A stretch of DNA of 32,462 nt from an uncultured bacterium. Its GTDB lineage: Bacteria; Electryoneota; Electryoneia; Electryoneales; Electryoneaceae. The stretch is taken from the NCBI GenBank assembly GCA_913009835.1, contig CAJVXH010000020.1, forward strand, positions 1 through 32,462, written 5' to 3'. Positions within the stretch are counted from its first letter, which is position 1, and every line of letters starts with the position of its first letter. Under the pieces are notes generated by a model that was not told where the DNA came from, made no database searches, and worked only from the letters and a program-made list of their open reading frames with translations. Below are positions 25,165-32,462 of the stretch, in pieces. The position numbers and the translations under genes are program-made.

Positions 25165-25339
25165 CTATAAATCCGACTCCCGGCGTCTCCACTGTCAAGC
25201 CCTAAAGTCTGCATATTCAGGCCAAAGATTTACTCATCATATAGGTGCGCCAAATATGTGCCCGGCAGGAAGTCGAGATTGAAGAGAGCACACGCATATT
25301 ATGGTGTTGAGACCCACGCACTCTTGGCGAGCTGACGAT

Positions 25340-25768
25340 ATGCTGACGACAACTTCCGAGTACGCTATTCGCGCAGTTGGATTTCTTGCTGTTTATGGTA
25401 ACGGCGAATTGCTGAAATCGGGCGATATTTCTGATTCAACAGGGATTCCCAAACGATTCCTGCAGAAGATCCTCAATACTCTCAAAAATGATGGTATCAT
25501 TGACACTGCTCGTGGGAAAACTGGCGGTTTCAGGCTCGCCAGGCAACCAGATGATATCACTCTTTTTGAAGTAATCAACTGTTTCGAGGACCTTAACCGC
25601 CACGCACACTGCCCTATGGGTGCAAAGGATTGTGGCGAAAATAAAGGATCTACTTGCCCTATGCATGAACAGTGGAGTGCAACACGAACGTCGTACATGA
25701 GTTTTCTTCGGAAAACTACATTCGCTTCGTTCACAGAAGAGAATCTCCCCTTCTCATTCCACCACTAA
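25340..25768 (+). CDS. Rrf2-family transcriptional regulator with three-cysteine cluster site
   Basis: This is a protein of 142 residues. The winged helix is MLTTTSEYAIRAVGFLA...GDISDSTGIPKRFLQKILNTLKNDGIIDTARGKTGGFRLAR, followed by a dimerisation helix and three cysteines, C91-x6-C98-x7-C106 (HCPMGAKDCGENKGSTCPMH). Rrf2 proteins with this arrangement (NsrR, IscR, RirA) bind an Fe-S cluster and sense NO, cluster supply or redox state. An NsrR-like NO sensor would fit the nos genes downstream. The start is placed at MLTTTSEY, where family homology begins; an ATG at 25301 would add 13 residues. It has its own transcription unit, 325 nt before the second Rrf2 gene. Confidence 0.85.
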   Translation: MLTTTSEYAIRAVGFLAVYGNGELLKSGDISDSTGIPKRFLQKILNTLKNDGIIDTARGKTGGFRLARQPDDITLFEVINCFEDLNRHAHCPMGAKDCGENKGSTCPMHEQWSATRTSYMSFLRKTTFASFTEENLPFSFHH

Positions 25769-26093: not shown

Positions 26094-26558
26094 ATGCTGA
26101 GTCAGACTTCACAACACGCTCTACGTGCACTTGGCTACATCGCCTCAGTCGAGCAGGGCAAACGAGTAGGATCGGCAGCCATCGCGAGAGCAAGTGATGT
26201 GCCGCATGGGTTCCTGCTGAAAATCCTGAACACGATGACAGTTCGGGGAATACTGCTCTCAACACGGGGAGTGGGCGGTGGGTTCCAATTGGCCAGACCA
26301 GCTGAAAACATATCGATGTACGAGATAGTAACGACCTTTGAAAATTTGTCCAGGACGACGCCAGGTCTTCTGGGAGGAGTTCCACCAGAGAGCCCGGATC
26401 TGCGAGCAATGGATTCCACGATTCGCCGGCAGTTCGATGAACTATTGCACTTTCTGCGAACGACAACACTTGACGCCTTCAGCCTGGAAGACTTCAACAG
26501 ACATCTACACCCTGAAGCTGGAAGAGACGACACAACAAACACAGAGGACACCGATTGA
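26094..26558 (+). CDS. Rrf2-family regulator lacking cysteines
   Basis: This 154-residue protein has the Rrf2 winged helix (MLSQTSQHALRALGYIA...AAIARASDVPHGFLLKILNTMTVRGILLSTRGVGGGFQLARPAENISMYEIV). It contains no cysteine at all, so it cannot ligate an Fe-S cluster in the usual way, and its last 20 residues are Asp/Glu/Thr-rich. It may act through protein partners or a small ligand, like CymR-type members, or compete with the three-cysteine paralogue at 25340. Its TGA shares one base with the ATG of the flavoprotein gene, so it is the first gene of the operon. The ribosome site is weak. Confidence 0.85.
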   Translation: MLSQTSQHALRALGYIASVEQGKRVGSAAIARASDVPHGFLLKILNTMTVRGILLSTRGVGGGFQLARPAENISMYEIVTTFENLSRTTPGLLGGVPPESPDLRAMDSTIRRQFDELLHFLRTTTLDAFSLEDFNRHLHPEAGRDDTTNTEDTD

Positions 26559-28495
26559 TGAGCAGTGTCCACAATAACTCCAAAAAGTTTCCCGCAGTTT
26601 TCAACGATCTGAACTGGTACCGGAGCAACGTGCCATGCATGGAAGCGTGCCCGGTACATACTGATTCCGGACGATACGTGCAACTGATTGCTGAAGGACG
26701 CTTCAACGACGCCTTTCACATCGCCCGCTCACCGAATCCGCTGGCATCCATCTGCGGACGGGTGTGCGCCGCACCCTGCGAAGATGCCTGCCGCAGAAGC
26801 TGGATTGACGAAGCGGTCACCATTCGCCCCCTGAAACGATTTCTCACCGAACGATATGGCAGCGAATCCACCAAGCCGGATGAATATCAACGCTTGATAA
26901 GCGACCAGGTTGATGTCGGATGTCAACGACCCTGGCATTTGCAGCAATTGCCAAAAGGGTCAGATCGAGGCTCAGGGAAAAAAGTGGCAATCATAGGTAG
27001 CGGGCCGGCCGGGATGGGCTGTGCGCACGATTTGGCCGTTCTGGGATACCAGGTAACTATCTTCGAAGCCCTACCGCTTCCAGGCGGAATGCTGCGCTAT
27101 GGTATTCCGGAATACCGATTGCCACGTGGCGTGATAGATGCTGAAGTAGCCACCCTGATCAACCTCGGCGTCGAATTGCGAACAAACACTCCGCTATCCG
27201 CCGAATACAACCTGCAGACTCTTCGCGATGATGGATATGAGGCTGTCTTCCTGTCCATTGGAGCGATGAAGGGGCGCGACCTGAATATCCCCGGTCACGA
27301 ACTCGACGGCGTGATCAAGGCGGTCGACTTCCTGCTCAACGTTAACCAGGGATATCGGGTCAATCTCGGAAAGAGGGTCGCGGTAATAGGTGGCGGATCG
27401 GTGGCGCTGGATGCTGCACGCTCAGCAGTTCGTGAATTCTACACTCCCATGGAAGAAATCGAGAAGACAGCGGAAGCTGTAGTAAACCAACCGGCGATGG
27501 ATGCTGCCCGGGGTGCTCTCAGATCTGGTGCTGCGGAAGTACACGTCTTTTCACTCGAATCACTCGAGGAACTCCCTTCCGCCAAGACTGTCCAGGGAAA
27601 AGAAGAACTGCACGAGTCCACTCTGGAGGGTATTCAGCTGCACCCATCATGGGGTCCGAAAGAAATCACCGGGACAGATCGTGTGCAGAGCTTGAACATG
27701 ATTGGCGTTACACGTGTCTTTGATGAGGATGGCCGATTCTCACCTCAGTATGACGAATCCAAAACCATGCAGCTCGATGTCGATTCGGTCATTCTCGCTA
27801 TCGGCCAACAACCGGATCTCGATTTTATATCAGACAGCGATGGTATCGAGCTGACCCGTGGCGGCACGATCAAGATCGATCCCGAGACTTTAGCGACCAC
27901 CGCACCGGGAGTTTATGCTGGCGGAGACGCTGCATTCGGCCCACGCATCCTGATCGAAGCTGTGGCGAATGGGAAGAACGCCGCTCGCTCAATAGACACC
28001 TTCCTCAGCGGCGAATCCTCTGCTCCATCCATGCGCGTCACCATCGAAAAGATTCCGATTGACGATTACAAGATGCCGTCCGCTTACGAAAAGCTTACCC
28101 GAAAGTCCCCTGACACCATCGACGTTGGACGGCGAACCGGCATTACCGAAGTCGAGACTATTTTCGACGAGGCCGAAGCTATAAAGCAGGCAGAACGTTG
28201 CCTGTCCTGCCATATAGATACGATTTACGATCCGGAAATCTGTGTCCTCTGCGGGCGTTGCGCCGATGTCTGCCCCGAGAAATGTCTGCACTTCGTTCCA
28301 ATCGATGAAGTGGACATGCCTGAAGATCAGAAGAAAATAGCATTGGATTCATACGGCATCGATGCCGAGAGTGATCAACTGACCGTGTTGCTCAAAGATG
28401 ATACGGCCTGTATTCGTTGTGGGTTATGTGCTCAGCGCTGTCCCACTGAAGCTATGACCATGGAAAGGTTTAATTTCGTGGAGACAGTAGAGTGA
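26558..28495 (+). CDS. GltD-like FAD-dependent NAD(P)H oxidoreductase with ferredoxin domain
   Basis: This is a 645-residue cytoplasmic iron-sulfur flavoprotein. The N-terminus has the GltD/DPD-type Fe-S region (C27-x3-C31; C66, C70, C74, C78). FAD binding is at GSGPAG (147-152), the second Rossmann fold at GGGSVALDAARSAVR is for NAD(P)H, and VILAIGQQPD plus YAGGDAAFGP complete the fold. The C-terminus adds CLSC (548-551) and two ferredoxin-type motifs, CVLCGRCADVCP (562-573) and CIRCGLCAQRCP (618-629). It overlaps the Rrf2 gene by 1 nt and the Rieske gene by 4 nt (GTGA). In the glutamate synthase family this subunit oxidises NAD(P)H; here, beside Rieske and cytochrome b, it probably moves electrons between NAD(P)H or ferredoxin and the membrane complex. 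The direction is unknown. The start is ATG, not the TTG three bases earlier. Confidence 0.88.
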   Translation: MSSVHNNSKKFPAVFNDLNWYRSNVPCMEACPVHTDSGRYVQLIAEGRFNDAFHIARSPNPLASICGRVCAAPCEDACRRSWIDEAVTIRPLKRFLTERYGSESTKPDEYQRLISDQVDVGCQRPWHLQQLPKGSDRGSGKKVAIIGSGPAGMGCAHDLAVLGYQVTIFEALPLPGGMLRYGIPEYRLPRGVIDAEVATLINLGVELRTNTPLSAEYNLQTLRDDGYEAVFLSIGAMKGRDLNIPGHELDGVIKAVDFLLNVNQGYRVNLGKRVAVIGGGSVALDAARSAVREFYTPMEEIEKTAEAVVNQPAMDAARGALRSGAAEVHVFSLESLEELPSAKTVQGKEELHESTLEGIQLHPSWGPKEITGTDRVQSLNMIGVTRVFDEDGRFSPQYDESKTMQLDVDSVILAIGQQPDLDFISDSDGIELTRGGTIKIDPETLATTAPGVYAGGDAAFGPRILIEAVANGKNAARSIDTFLSGESSAPSMRVTIEKIPIDDYKMPSAYEKLTRKSPDTIDVGRRTGITEVETIFDEAEAIKQAERCLSCHIDTIYDPEICVLCGRCADVCPEKCLHFVPIDEVDMPEDQKKIALDSYGIDAESDQLTVLLKDDTACIRCGLCAQRCPTEAMTMERFNFVETVE

Positions 28496-29010
28496 ACGAC
28501 AAAAAACAAAACCCTACCCAGACAAGACGAACATTCCTGGGACGCCTGTCCGTCGGTTTCATCGGACTGAGCCTGTTCAGCGGATTGTGGGTCGTGCTCA
28601 AGTCACTGATTCCCAATGTGCTGTACGAACCACCGAAACGCTTCAAGATCGGTGATCCCAACCATTTCCAGTCGGGCGTCTCATATCTGGAAGAGCACAA
28701 GCTGTACATATTCAAACAGGGAAATAGTTTCTTCGCGATCTCGGGTGTATGTACCCATCTGGGATGCACGGTCAAGTTTTCACCTTTCAACCAGGAAAAA
28801 CAGATCACCGTCCGTGGCAAAGAATTCACCGAAACCGGTGAATTTCTCTGTCCGTGTCATGGCTCGAAATTCCACGGCGAAGGCACCAACTACGCTGGTC
28901 CAGCTCCGCGACCATTGAAATGGCATCGTCTGGATCTTGCCCAGGATGATGGCCAGTTGATAGTAGATATTGCAACAGAAGTCGATCGCGACTTCAGGCT
29001 GGTGGTCTGA
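28492..29010 (+). CDS. Rieske [2Fe-2S] protein of a quinol:cytochrome complex
   Basis: This 172-residue membrane-anchored Rieske subunit has a twin-arginine motif (TRRTFLGRL) before one hydrophobic helix (about 18-40), so Tat export of the folded protein is expected. Cluster ligands are in C87-T-H89-L-G-C92 and C120-P-C122-H123-GS, followed by the 'GPAPRPL' loop. It takes one electron from quinol at cytochrome b and passes it to c-haems. The GTG start overlaps the flavoprotein stop (GTGA), and its TGA shares a base with the ATG of cytochrome b. Rieske/cytochrome b pairs are known in several clade II nos clusters, so a role in quinol oxidation for N2O reduction is likely. Confidence 0.93.
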   Translation: MNDKKQNPTQTRRTFLGRLSVGFIGLSLFSGLWVVLKSLIPNVLYEPPKRFKIGDPNHFQSGVSYLEEHKLYIFKQGNSFFAISGVCTHLGCTVKFSPFNQEKQITVRGKEFTETGEFLCPCHGSKFHGEGTNYAGPAPRPLKWHRLDLAQDDGQLIVDIATEVDRDFRLVV

Positions 29011-30506
29011 TGAACCTTCTACCTAAAACATCCATACTGGACAAGCTGCTCTGGCCGTGGAGGCCTGAGTCAAACCGTGAGGCTGGCAGCGCAGTAGTAT
29101 CCAGCTTCCTGTTGCACTGGTTCCCACACCGGATATCCTTGAGATCACTCTCACTCATGTCTTCGATGTACCTGGGAACCATCACCCTGACCCTGTTCAT
29201 TATTCTGACCGTCACCGGGGTCATCCTGATGTTCTTCTACGTGCCTTCCGTTGAACGAGCCTACTGGAGCATCAAGGATATCGAATTCGCTATCAGCTTC
29301 GGATGGTTGCTGAGACGCTTGCACCGGGTTACCGCCCATCTCATGGTAGCCTTCGCCTTCCTGCACATGTTCCGTGTCTTCCTGACCGGCGCCTACAAGG
29401 CTGGGAGCATGGTCAGATCAGCGCGCCCCTGGAACTGGGTGATGGGCGTGGGGATGCTGGTGCTCACATTATTGCTGAGCTTCACCGGTTACCTGCTGCC
29501 CTGGGATCAACTGGCATACTGGGCGATTACGGTCGGGACCAACATCGCGGCCTCTGTGCCGCTGATGGGAGAGCAGATTCGTCAATTCCTGCTCGGCGGA
29601 ACTGAGATCGGTCAGAACACCCTCATCCGGTTCTATGTCCTGCACGTCTTCTTCCTGCCGATTATTCTGTTTGCTCTGACCGCCTGGCACATGTGGCGCA
29701 TACGCAAGGATGGCGGGCTGGCAGTCGTCGACCAGGTTCGAAAATATGCCGCTGATAATCCACCTGAGATCCCCAAGAAATCCAAGACTTACAGCATACT
29801 CGGCATCGCAAAGGGGACCAGCGTCGCGGTCAATGATCCGACCACCTTGAATGATGGCAACTCGGTTCCATCGTCACCGTTCCTCACGACACGATTACTC
29901 CTGGTCGTCCTCTCGACACTGGCAGTTTCGATAATCCTGTCCATCGTTTTCCAAGCGCCGTTGGAAGCGGCCGCCAACCCGGAAGTGACCCCGAACCCGG
30001 CAAAAGCACCGTGGTACTTCCTCGGATTGCAGGAGCTGGTTGGTTATTCCGCGCTAATGGGTGGTGTGTTGATTCCCGGAATCGCGGTCCTTGGATTGGC
30101 CTCGATTCCGTTTATTGATCGCGAACAGAAGGGGCTGGGATTGTGGTTCACCGACAGCCGGGGACGGAATTTCGGTCTGCTCGGCTTTGCTTACGGTCTG
30201 ATCGCAACCGCGTTCTGCGTAACCCTCGCCCTGCTGCTGCCAACACGTGAACTGTTCAGCGGAATTGAAAGTCAGTTCTTCTTCGATTTCGTGAACCCTG
30301 CTTCTCTGCTGCTGGTCTTGTTTGCGGCCTTGTTCCTGGTAGTGTCGAAGGTTTCAAAGTCGACGCGCTATGCGTCCATCGCGACGTTCTGTGCATTCAT
30401 TATCGGATTCCTGCTTCTGACTTACATCGGCACCGCCCTTCGTGGTCCGAACTGGGACTTCTACTGGCCATGGCAAGCCTGGCCACATCACCCGATCACC
30501 TACTGA
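29010..30506 (+). CDS. Cytochrome b (fused b6/subunit IV type)
   Basis: This 498-residue polytopic membrane protein has haem-ligand pairs H105/H119 (13 residues between) and H212/H227 (14 between). The second spacing is b6-like. GYLLPWDQ (160-167) marks the Qo side. A loop of about 60 residues (234-292) joins the b6-like half to a subunit IV-like half, where the usual PEWY is replaced by A333-P-W-Y336 (KAPWYFLGLQEL). Further helices end near TYIGTALRGP. Loss of the PEWY glutamate is notable for quinol proton release. The ATG overlaps the Rieske stop by one base. The complex should oxidise menaquinol and feed the pentahaem cytochrome encoded 8 nt downstream. Confidence 0.92.
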   Translation: MNLLPKTSILDKLLWPWRPESNREAGSAVVSSFLLHWFPHRISLRSLSLMSSMYLGTITLTLFIILTVTGVILMFFYVPSVERAYWSIKDIEFAISFGWLLRRLHRVTAHLMVAFAFLHMFRVFLTGAYKAGSMVRSARPWNWVMGVGMLVLTLLLSFTGYLLPWDQLAYWAITVGTNIAASVPLMGEQIRQFLLGGTEIGQNTLIRFYVLHVFFLPIILFALTAWHMWRIRKDGGLAVVDQVRKYAADNPPEIPKKSKTYSILGIAKGTSVAVNDPTTLNDGNSVPSSPFLTTRLLLVVLSTLAVSIILSIVFQAPLEAAANPEVTPNPAKAPWYFLGLQELVGYSALMGGVLIPGIAVLGLASIPFIDREQKGLGLWFTDSRGRNFGLLGFAYGLIATAFCVTLALLLPTRELFSGIESQFFFDFVNPASLLLVLFAALFLVVSKVSKSTRYASIATFCAFIIGFLLLTYIGTALRGPNWDFYWPWQAWPHHPITY

Positions 30507-30513
30507 GGCAGAG

Positions 30514-31731
30514 ATGAGGAAAGCAATACCACAACGCGAACTCTTCATGCTGCTGATCGTAGCCGTGATCACGGTGGTCGCTATCGGCGCGGTGTACGTG
30601 CGTGAAAACGTTCCGGAATGGAAATACTACCAGTCCGAGTTCGGATATATCCTGGAAGAGAATTTTGGGGATGTTGATGCAGCATCGGTCCCATCCGGTA
30701 TCCAGCAGATATGGGTGGAGGATCTGGACCGGGTAGACCGCTGCACCACCTGCCACCTGGGCATTACCTGGCCGGGTCTGGAAGATTTAGAGCAGCCGTG
30801 GGCAACTCACCCGGACCTGGAGATGTTCAGGGATCATCCTCTGGAAGACTATGGCTGCACCATCTGCCACGGCGGGCAGGGATTTGCCCTGACAACTGTT
30901 GAAGCTCATGGCTTCATCAAGCACTGGGAACAACCACTGCTCAGCTCAATCATCGGGTCGGAATACGACGTTCGTAATCCCGTTCCGATGCACGAAATCC
31001 AGTGCAACTACTGCCACCGTTACGAACGAAATACAGCTGGACTCGATTTCATCAACCATGGTAAAAACCTGATGCATCAGAAAGGCTGTAAGGTTTGTCA
31101 CATCATCGGCGGCGATGGTGGCATTCTCGGGCCCGAGCTGACCAACGAGGGTGATAAACACCCGGAAGGGTATGATTTCTCGAATCTCGTCTCAGATCAA
31201 CTGACCATTTTCAACTGGCACATCAGACATTTCAAATCCCCGGAGACGATTGTTCCCGGCACAATCATGCCGGACATGAATTTCCAGACCAGGGATGCTA
31301 TTGCCCTATCCATGCTGGTGATGAGCTGGAAAGACAACAGCGACTTGCCACGTGACTACATGCCGGGCATTGACCTGCAGGACGAGATGACGGCGGAAGA
31401 GATCGAACGGGAACGGAAGATGCGTGACGGCGACGGCGCATTCTTCTTCGAGCATTCCTGTTTCATTTGCCACAGCATTGAAGCGTTCGACATCGAATCG
31501 CCCACCAACAAGGGTCCGGACCTATCATGGGCTCCGGACGATGTCCGAACACGGTTCAACAAAACGGTCGAAGAGTTCCTGTTTAACCCAACCGGCACCA
31601 TGGAGATAATCCTGGGTAGCCAGATCCCACTGACGGATGAGGAAAAGTGGGAAGCTGTTGAGAAAATCAACAGGGCTTACGACATCGTTAAGAACAGAAG
31701 TGAACAGAACCAGATGAGTAGTAATGATTAG
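30514..31731 (+). CDS. Membrane-anchored pentahaem cytochrome c
   Basis: This 405-residue protein has one N-terminal transmembrane anchor (FMLLIVAVITVVAIGAVYV) and five CxxCH haem sites: 77-81 CTTCH, 115-119 CTICH, 164-168 CNYCH, 192-196 CKVCH and 316-320 CFICH. The last part (240-345, with 'GTIMPDM' and 'CFICHS') resembles a class I monohaem c domain. It lies 8 nt after cytochrome b with GAGGCAG before the ATG; a longer in-frame start at 30442 lies inside cytochrome b and is rejected. It most likely replaces cytochrome c1/f, carrying electrons from Rieske to NosZ or a small c carrier in the periplasm. Confidence 0.92.
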   Translation: MRKAIPQRELFMLLIVAVITVVAIGAVYVRENVPEWKYYQSEFGYILEENFGDVDAASVPSGIQQIWVEDLDRVDRCTTCHLGITWPGLEDLEQPWATHPDLEMFRDHPLEDYGCTICHGGQGFALTTVEAHGFIKHWEQPLLSSIIGSEYDVRNPVPMHEIQCNYCHRYERNTAGLDFINHGKNLMHQKGCKVCHIIGGDGGILGPELTNEGDKHPEGYDFSNLVSDQLTIFNWHIRHFKSPETIVPGTIMPDMNFQTRDAIALSMLVMSWKDNSDLPRDYMPGIDLQDEMTAEEIERERKMRDGDGAFFFEHSCFICHSIEAFDIESPTNKGPDLSWAPDDVRTRFNKTVEEFLFNPTGTMEIILGSQIPLTDEEKWEAVEKINRAYDIVKNRSEQNQMSSND

Positions 31732-31751
31732 TAATAGATTGCTAATTATGT

Positions 31752-31865
31752 GTCATCCTGAACGAAGTGAAGGATCTAGCAGTTTGTTCATTTACAAGGC
31801 GATAACAACGAGATCCTTAGGATGACGTGCCAGTTCAGGATGACGTGCCAGTTCAGGATGACGTG
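31752..31865. repeat. Dispersed palindromic repeat, copy 2, with 18-bp tandem units
   Basis: GTCATCCTGAACGAAGTGAA plus GGATCT (31752-31777) is answered by the shortened inverse AGATCCTTAGGATGAC (31811-31826). Two exact tandem copies of CCAGTTCAGGATGACGTG follow (31830-31847, 31848-31865), each containing GTTCAGGATGAC, the inverse of the left arm. It occupies most of the 220-nt gap before nosZ. It matches the repeat at 15-45. The RNA could fold into a hairpin separating nosZ expression from the upstream genes. Confidence 0.65.
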
Positions 31866-31951
31866 ACCTGACAGCACCAACAGTGTGACTGACTCCAACA
31901 AACAACATCAAAGCAAACACTGAAGATAGTAACACATAGGGAGGGTAAAGG

Positions 31952-32336
31952 ATGAAGAACAGGGTCTTGTGGACTCAATGGATCGCGTACCTGCTGATCG
32001 CCACGTTTGCGACAGGGATGATCGGTTGCGCGCAGAAACCGTCACGCGGTGGACGCGGCGGCGGTACATCTGGATCGGGTGCAACCTCGGCAGCGCTGGC
32101 CACATACGTCGCACCAGGCGATCTCGACGAGTATTACCTCTTCTATTCAGGTGGGCACAGTGGTCAGATCTTCGTGGCGGGTGTTCCTTCGATGCGTCAT
32201 ATCTGCACCATCCCCGTATTCAGCCCCTATCCAGGAACAGGATATGGCTTCGACAACGAATCCAAAGAGATGCTCGGAGATTTCAACTGGGGTGACGCTC
32301 ATCATCCTGGACTTTCAGAAACCGACGGTGAATACG
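31952..32336 (+). CDS. nosZ: Nitrous oxide reductase, clade II, N-terminal fragment
   Basis: This is the first 128 codons of the copper enzyme that reduces N2O to N2 in the periplasm. A GGGAGGGTAAAGG region gives the ribosome site. The N-terminus is a Sec-type lipoprotein signal with lipobox TGMIGC, not the twin-arginine signal of clade I NosZ. The following DEYYLFYSGGHSGQIFVAGV, PSMRHICTIPVFSPYPGTGY and GDFNWGDAHHPGLSETDGEY are diagnostic of NosZ. The H in SGGHSG and the HH in DAHHPG include CuZ-site histidines in the family. The CuZ and CuA remainder is missing because the sequence runs into adapter at 32337. Residues read beyond EYE/G (IGRAHV) are artefact. Confidence 0.95.
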
Positions 32337-32462
32337 AGATCGGAAGAGCACACGTCTGAACTCCAGTCACACTGATATATCTCGTATGCCGTCTTCTGCT
32401 TGAAAAAAAAAAAAAATAAACTTATAGATCGGAAGAGCACACGAGCCATGTCATGTGGTCTC
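32337..32462 (+). other. Illumina TruSeq adapter, index and poly-A (non-biological)
   Basis: AGATCGGAAGAGCACACG and the rest of the TruSeq read-1 adapter run from 32337 to 32370. They are followed by the 8-nt index ACTGATAT (32371-32378), the flow-cell P7 part ending CTTCTGCTTG (to 32402) and a poly-A run, the usual read-through signature. A second partial adapter starts at 32426. The final about 19 nt are of unknown origin. Nothing here should be annotated as genome. Confidence 0.97.

Follow-up and report, generated by a model that had tools for sequence, protein, structure and literature searches.

NosZ is the main biological sink for nitrous oxide (N2O), and the electron supply of the clade II enzymes is poorly resolved. 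Rieske and cytochrome b genes reportedly occur in clade II nos clusters, a point for which a 2017 paper by Hein et al. is cited. Such genes are known in the nos system of Wolinella, as cited in PMC11409646, and in a clade II cluster of Desulfosporosinus, as drawn in PMC11096178; the citing text of the first and the figure of the second name Fe-S, Rieske and cytochrome genes and no NAD-type flavoprotein. The closest described system is that of anammox bacteria, in which the Rieske/cytochrome b complexes Kuste4569-4574 and Kustd1480-1485 of Kuenenia include an NAD(P) oxidoreductase subunit, as the earlier note on this DNA had stated in outline (Hauser et al., PMC12954380). For the anammox complexes the formation of NAD(P)H by quinol bifurcation with nitrite as acceptor has been proposed, haem cN is modelled, and NfnABC is the best fold found by DALI for the subunit Kuste4570 (PMC12954380). 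Here we describe a locus in which parts known separately from clade II nos clusters and from anammox bacteria, a nos-linked Rieske/cytochrome b core and an NAD(P)-linked flavoprotein, are encoded together. It lies on contig CAJVXH010000020.1 (32,462 nucleotides, analysed as a whole and hereafter called the window) of an uncultured bacterium of the Electryoneaceae (assembly GCA_913009835.1). No description of a nos-linked flavoprotein/bc complex was found in the literature searched, which did not extend to work behind subscription, for example that of ten Brink et al. (2013) on multiple Rieske/cytb complexes, and the broad distribution of the module is undiscussed as far as could be found.

Four intact genes lie nearly end to end on the + strand at 26558-31731. 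They encode a flavoprotein of 645 amino acids (26558-28495; Pfam Pyr_redox_2, Fer4_20 and Fer4_10), a Rieske [2Fe-2S] protein of 172 (28492-29010; Pfam Rieske, 1.3e-10), a fusion of cytochrome b6 with a subunit-IV-like part, 498 residues long (29010-30506; Pfam Cytochrome_B, 1.5e-43), and a membrane-anchored pentahaem cytochrome c (30514-31731; five CXXCH motifs). The flavoprotein stop and the Rieske GTG share 4 nt (GTGA, 28492-28495), and the Rieske stop and the cytochrome b ATG share 1 nt (29008-29012). The overlaps of 1-4 nt claimed earlier for the whole set therefore hold for the first three genes but not for the last junction, where the cytochrome b stop ends at 30506 and the pentahaem ATG at 30514 leaves a gap of 7 nt.

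As the earlier note had it, the operon forms part of a clade II nos cluster. An open reading frame starts at 31952, 220 nt downstream of the pentahaem gene, and its residues 48-129 match Sec-dependent NosZ (TIGR04246, 118 bits); this 5' part of a clade II (Sec-type) nosZ extends over 31952-32336 on the + strand, the contig turning into Illumina TruSeq adapter at 32337, inside the gene. Another contig of this genome (G000), C56, has at its end most of the remaining NosZ (profile positions 195-577), followed in order by nosB, a small nos-associated gene, nosD, nosF, nosL and nosY. A single contig of the related genome G033 (L016) spans the same genes without interruption from Rrf2 through nosF, which supports joining the window contig to C56. 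With nosZ split over the two, the locus thus has the Sec-type NosZ and adjoining nosB that define a clade II cluster, and shares with the described clusters nosD, F, L and Y and a Rieske/cytochrome bc electron supply; the flavoprotein and the pentahaem cytochrome set it apart from them.

The earlier note's assignment of the flavoprotein to the Rieske/cytochrome b pair is borne out by gene order, and the lack of conserved neighbourhood that would have spoken against it was not seen. In a domain-wide sample of 386 genomes, 27 flavoprotein orthologues (E <=1e-100) occur in 25 genomes; a Rieske gene adjoins every one of the 27, and cytochrome b is on the same contig in 26, a contig end intervening in the other (G331). 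A second set, drawn from the GTDB genome collection, comprised 80 named loci, whose gene order was determined by tblastn. Here the Rieske gene is next in 78 loci, cytochrome b follows as well in 77 and a multihaem gene too in 74, and the gaps are all due to contig ends except in L039, which has no Rieske gene within 2.4 kb downstream. The recurrence of the same order in many phyla is far beyond chance, and the association of flavoprotein and Rieske protein survives rearrangement, since in L216 and L217 the flavoprotein gene comes after the Rieske gene and before that of cytochrome b. One genome, G392, holds three separate matches to the flavoprotein family (L236, L237 and L238).

The flavoprotein consists of an N-terminal Fe-S domain, an FAD/NAD pyridine nucleotide oxidoreductase domain and a C-terminal 2[4Fe-4S] domain, and it is placed on the cytoplasmic side because no transmembrane segment or signal is predicted. 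All or nearly all of the 80 orthologues keep the glycine motifs for FAD and NAD as well as 17 Fe-S cysteines, 16 of which would suit four [4Fe-4S] clusters, the number also present in the anammox counterpart. A single-chain AlphaFold2 model (pLDDT 87.8) is poorly ordered only at the N-terminus and in an insert at 297-323, and Foldseek returned NfnABC as its top match, the best Protein Data Bank folds being the bifurcating transhydrogenases NfnABC and StnABC. With NfnB/GltD-type subunits (NfnABC 9bov and 9n5u; StnABC 8oh5; NfnI 5jca) it has in common the fold, the FAD/NAD Rossmann domains and the N-terminal Fe-S domain; it differs in its C-terminal 2[4Fe-4S] domain, in its insert and in its partner, which would be cytochrome b rather than a soluble flavoprotein. 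A further difference concerns the nucleotide. At the end of beta-2 the flavoprotein has L333-E334, in contrast to the Arg-Arg of aligned NADP-type relatives with known structures; E334 is invariant (n=49), and the Arg pair of the GltD/NfnB type for the NADPH 2'-phosphate is thus missing. An acidic residue at this place usually favours NAD(H) in Rossmann domains, and by this rule E334 favours NAD(H) over NADP(H) here. The NAD(P)H module envisaged earlier therefore needs narrowing, probably to NAD(H). D285 and R288 are also conserved. The insert, about 25 residues long and of low confidence (window 27446-27526), interrupts the NAD-binding Rossmann domain after GGGxxAxDxAR; it occurs in most orthologues and is shorter in L019, L216 and L217.

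The Rieske protein has a twin-arginine N-terminal membrane anchor and the motifs CTHLGC and CPCHGS. Its ligands (C87, H89 and C92; C120, C122 and H123) are kept in every ungapped row of 78 homologues, and Ser125 is retained throughout; the few odd cells in the Rieske and cytochrome alignments behind these residue counts are probably wrong frames in GC-rich loci. In cytochrome b the haem b ligands H105, H119, H212 and H227 are invariant (n=37), and the quinol-site PEWY is replaced by an equally invariant variant, NPAKAPWY, in which the Glu is missing. The subunit-IV part has five predicted membrane helices. The covalent haem cN cysteine, a trait of cytochrome b6f, was not found in the window protein, which has Tyr54 at this position, or in the homologues, which mostly have Trp or Tyr. 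The pentahaem cytochrome, with CXXCH motifs at residues 77, 115, 164, 192 and 316, stands in place of cytochrome c1/f. An apparent fusion of cytochrome b to the pentahaem cytochrome at L059 was rejected as a wrong frame in GC-rich DNA, and a true fusion of the two was not found.

On the cytoplasmic side ahead of helix 1, His36 of cytochrome b is invariant in the 37 homologues; directly after helix 4, R232 and K233 are present in >=90% of them, and R230 and D234 are invariant. His36 is missing from the corresponding place in nearly all of 26 other cytochromes b, nearly all of conventional bc types. In the two Kuenenia complexes an extra haem has been proposed, held by His43 or His62 together with Arg247 or Arg266/Lys267 (PMC12954380). 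The His-to-Arg spacing, compared by published residue numbers, is similar, at 196 in the window (H36 to R232) and 204 in Kuenenia. The locus L150 (G043:C11) combines the same cytochrome b subfamily with a Rieske protein and an eight-haem cytochrome, and has a different FAD oxidoreductase directly upstream.

Overall, the anammox complexes and the window have in common a Rieske protein, a b6-like cytochrome b, a five-helix subunit-IV part, a multihaem cytochrome c and an NfnABC-like NAD(P) oxidoreductase. They differ on the acceptor side, which is NosZ with a pentahaem cytochrome in the window and a hexa- or octahaem cytochrome with an HAO-like protein in the anammox complexes. Cytochrome b and subunit IV are fused in the window, unlike in the anammox complexes, which also have the modelled haem cN for which the window lacks the cysteine. 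The probable NAD(H)-type glutamate is a further difference, the anammox set being compared by its published description.

The link to N2O is real, but the module is a restricted feature among nos clusters. Of the 80 loci, 41 have nosZ after the module, and each of these encodes a cytochrome with exactly five haems; where nosZ is absent the haem count ranges from two to eight, and reaches ten in other sampled loci. In a quick maximum-likelihood tree the flavoproteins linked to nosZ nearly all fall within a single well-supported group; of its 63 rows, six are non-nos members and 13 are undecided through contig ends. In the domain-wide sample, flavoprotein and nosZ occur in the same genome nine times, against about 2.3 expected (Fisher p 1.4e-4, uncorrected for relatedness). 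Conversely, the module adjoins nosZ in only six of the 36 sampled genomes with a clade II-type nosZ match (G000, G033, G044, G053, G212 and G331) and so represents a minority type of nos cluster. The nosZ-linked form was seen in Acidobacteriota, Ignavibacteriota/Chlorobiota, candidate division KSB1, Anaeromyxobacter and others. The module was not found in six other genomes searched of the window's own family, which is consistent with horizontal gain.

The same flavoprotein-Rieske-cytochrome b-multihaem module also occurs without nosZ. In L078, L079, L082-L084, L088 and L098 its neighbours, judged by eye from sequence, are Cyc2-like porin-cytochromes and cupredoxin-like proteins, which point to metal oxidation or reverse electron flow as a possible role. 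In L226-L229, L231 and L224, where the cytochromes have six to ten haems, the proteins encoded next after the module are about 890-1170 amino acids long, and in the three loci tested, L226-L228, they are molybdopterin oxidoreductases. These neighbours suggest further acceptor or donor variants. An MtrC-like cytochrome lies near the module in L221. The module seems to serve as a reusable unit that is combined with different periplasmic partners.

What might such an assembly do? We infer that the four products form one membrane complex, with a quinol-oxidising Rieske/cytochrome b core, a periplasmic pentahaem cytochrome c and a cytoplasmic FAD/NAD iron-sulfur flavoprotein. The Qo site would oxidise menaquinol and send one electron through the Rieske protein and the pentahaem cytochrome to NosZ, and so to N2O, and the other through haems bP and bN to the four [4Fe-4S] clusters and FAD of the flavoprotein, where NAD+ would be reduced. 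A possible extra haem on His36, at the cytochrome b dimer interface, could belong to this low-potential path. The strongly oxidising N2O/N2 couple would pay for the uphill formation of NADH. By analogy with the anammox proposal we favour, tentatively and at a little short of even confidence, a model of quinol bifurcation in which N2O would be the strong acceptor and NAD+ the weak one. In its favour are the recurrent gene order, the conserved cofactor ligands and E334, the His36 and Arg/Lys set spaced much as in Kuenenia, the missing haem cN cysteine, the NfnABC fold seen also for Kuste4570, and the complex I-type proteins of all 25 sampled carriers. That the complex is widespread and horizontally mobile, uses N2O reduction to drive NAD+ reduction by bifurcation, and is one of a general NAD-coupled bc family whose periplasmic partner varies between NosZ, molybdopterin enzymes and multihaem or outer-membrane-type cytochromes is a more cautious suggestion again, possible and somewhat on the doubtful side.

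Several points weigh against quinol bifurcation. The direction of flow cannot be read from sequence, and in a heterotrophic-looking organism NADH is not obviously in short supply. Tyr at Rieske position 127 raises the potential; it is present in 27 of 41 nosZ-linked homologues, and the window protein has Phe. One of the 26 other cytochromes b, that of G043 (L150), has the His36/RK motif, yet no orthologous flavoprotein adjoins it, so that the motif supports such wiring but cannot prove it. For the same reason His36 was rejected as a marker of flavoprotein partnership; it marks a cytochrome b subfamily.

Textbook or published redox potentials, about +1.35 V for N2O/N2, -0.07 V for menaquinone and -0.32 V for NAD, make either direction feasible overall, and NADH oxidation through the complex is nearly as possible as the favoured bifurcation. 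Electrons would then run from NADH through the flavoprotein to the cytoplasmic side of cytochrome b and menaquinone, and leave through the Rieske protein and the pentahaem cytochrome to NosZ. The same genes and cofactors would serve, the path from NADH to N2O is downhill by about 1.6 V, and the gene content of the window is heterotrophic. Against this, NuoD and NuoF-like proteins of the complex I type occur in all 25 sampled genomes that bear the flavoprotein, and complex I would conserve more energy from NADH, so that a second NADH entry is not obviously needed. The window's own incomplete genome has complex I genes and a conventional cytochrome b (C33), its NuoF-like match scoring below the curated cut-off. 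Moreover, nosZ-less modules lie near outer-membrane-type cytochromes and molybdopterin enzymes, where uphill NAD+ reduction would make sense. We therefore regard this opposite flow as a doubtful though serious alternative. The heading of the earlier note, an NAD(P)H-linked route to N2O, assumed NADH as the donor; the complex I-type proteins encoded by all 25 carriers fit NAD+ reduction at least as well.

A third possibility is that an ordinary Q-cycle feeds NosZ, while the flavoprotein trades electrons with ferredoxin or another soluble partner, or serves in redox sensing or assembly, and no NAD(H) is turned over in the complex. The ferredoxin-like C-terminal 2[4Fe-4S] domain and the disordered insert within the NAD domain would suit it, but the NAD Rossmann motif, D285/R288 and E334 are conserved, and the acidic nature of E334 would be difficult to account for if NAD(H) were not involved; we consider this unlikely. 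Distant GltD/NfnB homology might suggest that the flavoprotein works on its own as a glutamate-synthase-like enzyme and has only its operon in common with the complex. This is highly improbable, given that the Rieske adjacency of all 27 orthologues persists through changes in gene order and that the flavoprotein scores below the cut-offs of GltD-type NCBIfam models.

With such a complex, N2O respiration may couple directly to the NADH pool of the cell, and a complex linking the two would, if true, change the calculation of growth yield on N2O. The cultivated genus Anaeromyxobacter would offer a tractable test of NAD(P)H formation by quinol bifurcation, so far proposed for anammox bacteria only.

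Upstream of the operon are two genes of the Rrf2 family, both on the + strand. The first (25301-25768; Pfam Rrf2, 1.6e-31) encodes a regulator with three cysteines (CPMGAKDC...C), a possible Fe-S or NO sensor. The second (26094-26558; Pfam Rrf2, 1.2e-20) has no cysteine, so that cluster sensing may be lost in it, and is translationally coupled to the flavoprotein, its stop sharing 1 nt with the flavoprotein ATG (TGATG, 26556-26560). The flavoprotein itself scores 419 bits against NCBIfam PRK12771 (NAD(P)-binding protein), under the curated cut-off of 516. Adapter, index and poly-A remain at both contig ends within nosZ (window 32337-32462 and the end of G000:C56, L015 5205-5286), and the open reading frames reported in these stretches (GRAHV..., RSEEHTSELQSH and RRPPRSTLFPYTTLFRS) are artefacts. 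Past the nos genes, C56 (L014 321-10027) carries several multihaem cytochromes with 4 to 17 CXXCH motifs and another Rrf2 regulator. Between the pentahaem gene and nosZ, at 31750-31875, near-identical short direct repeats form a run (GGATGACGTGCCAGTTCA...) together with a TGTCATCCTGAACGAAGTGAAGGATCT element.

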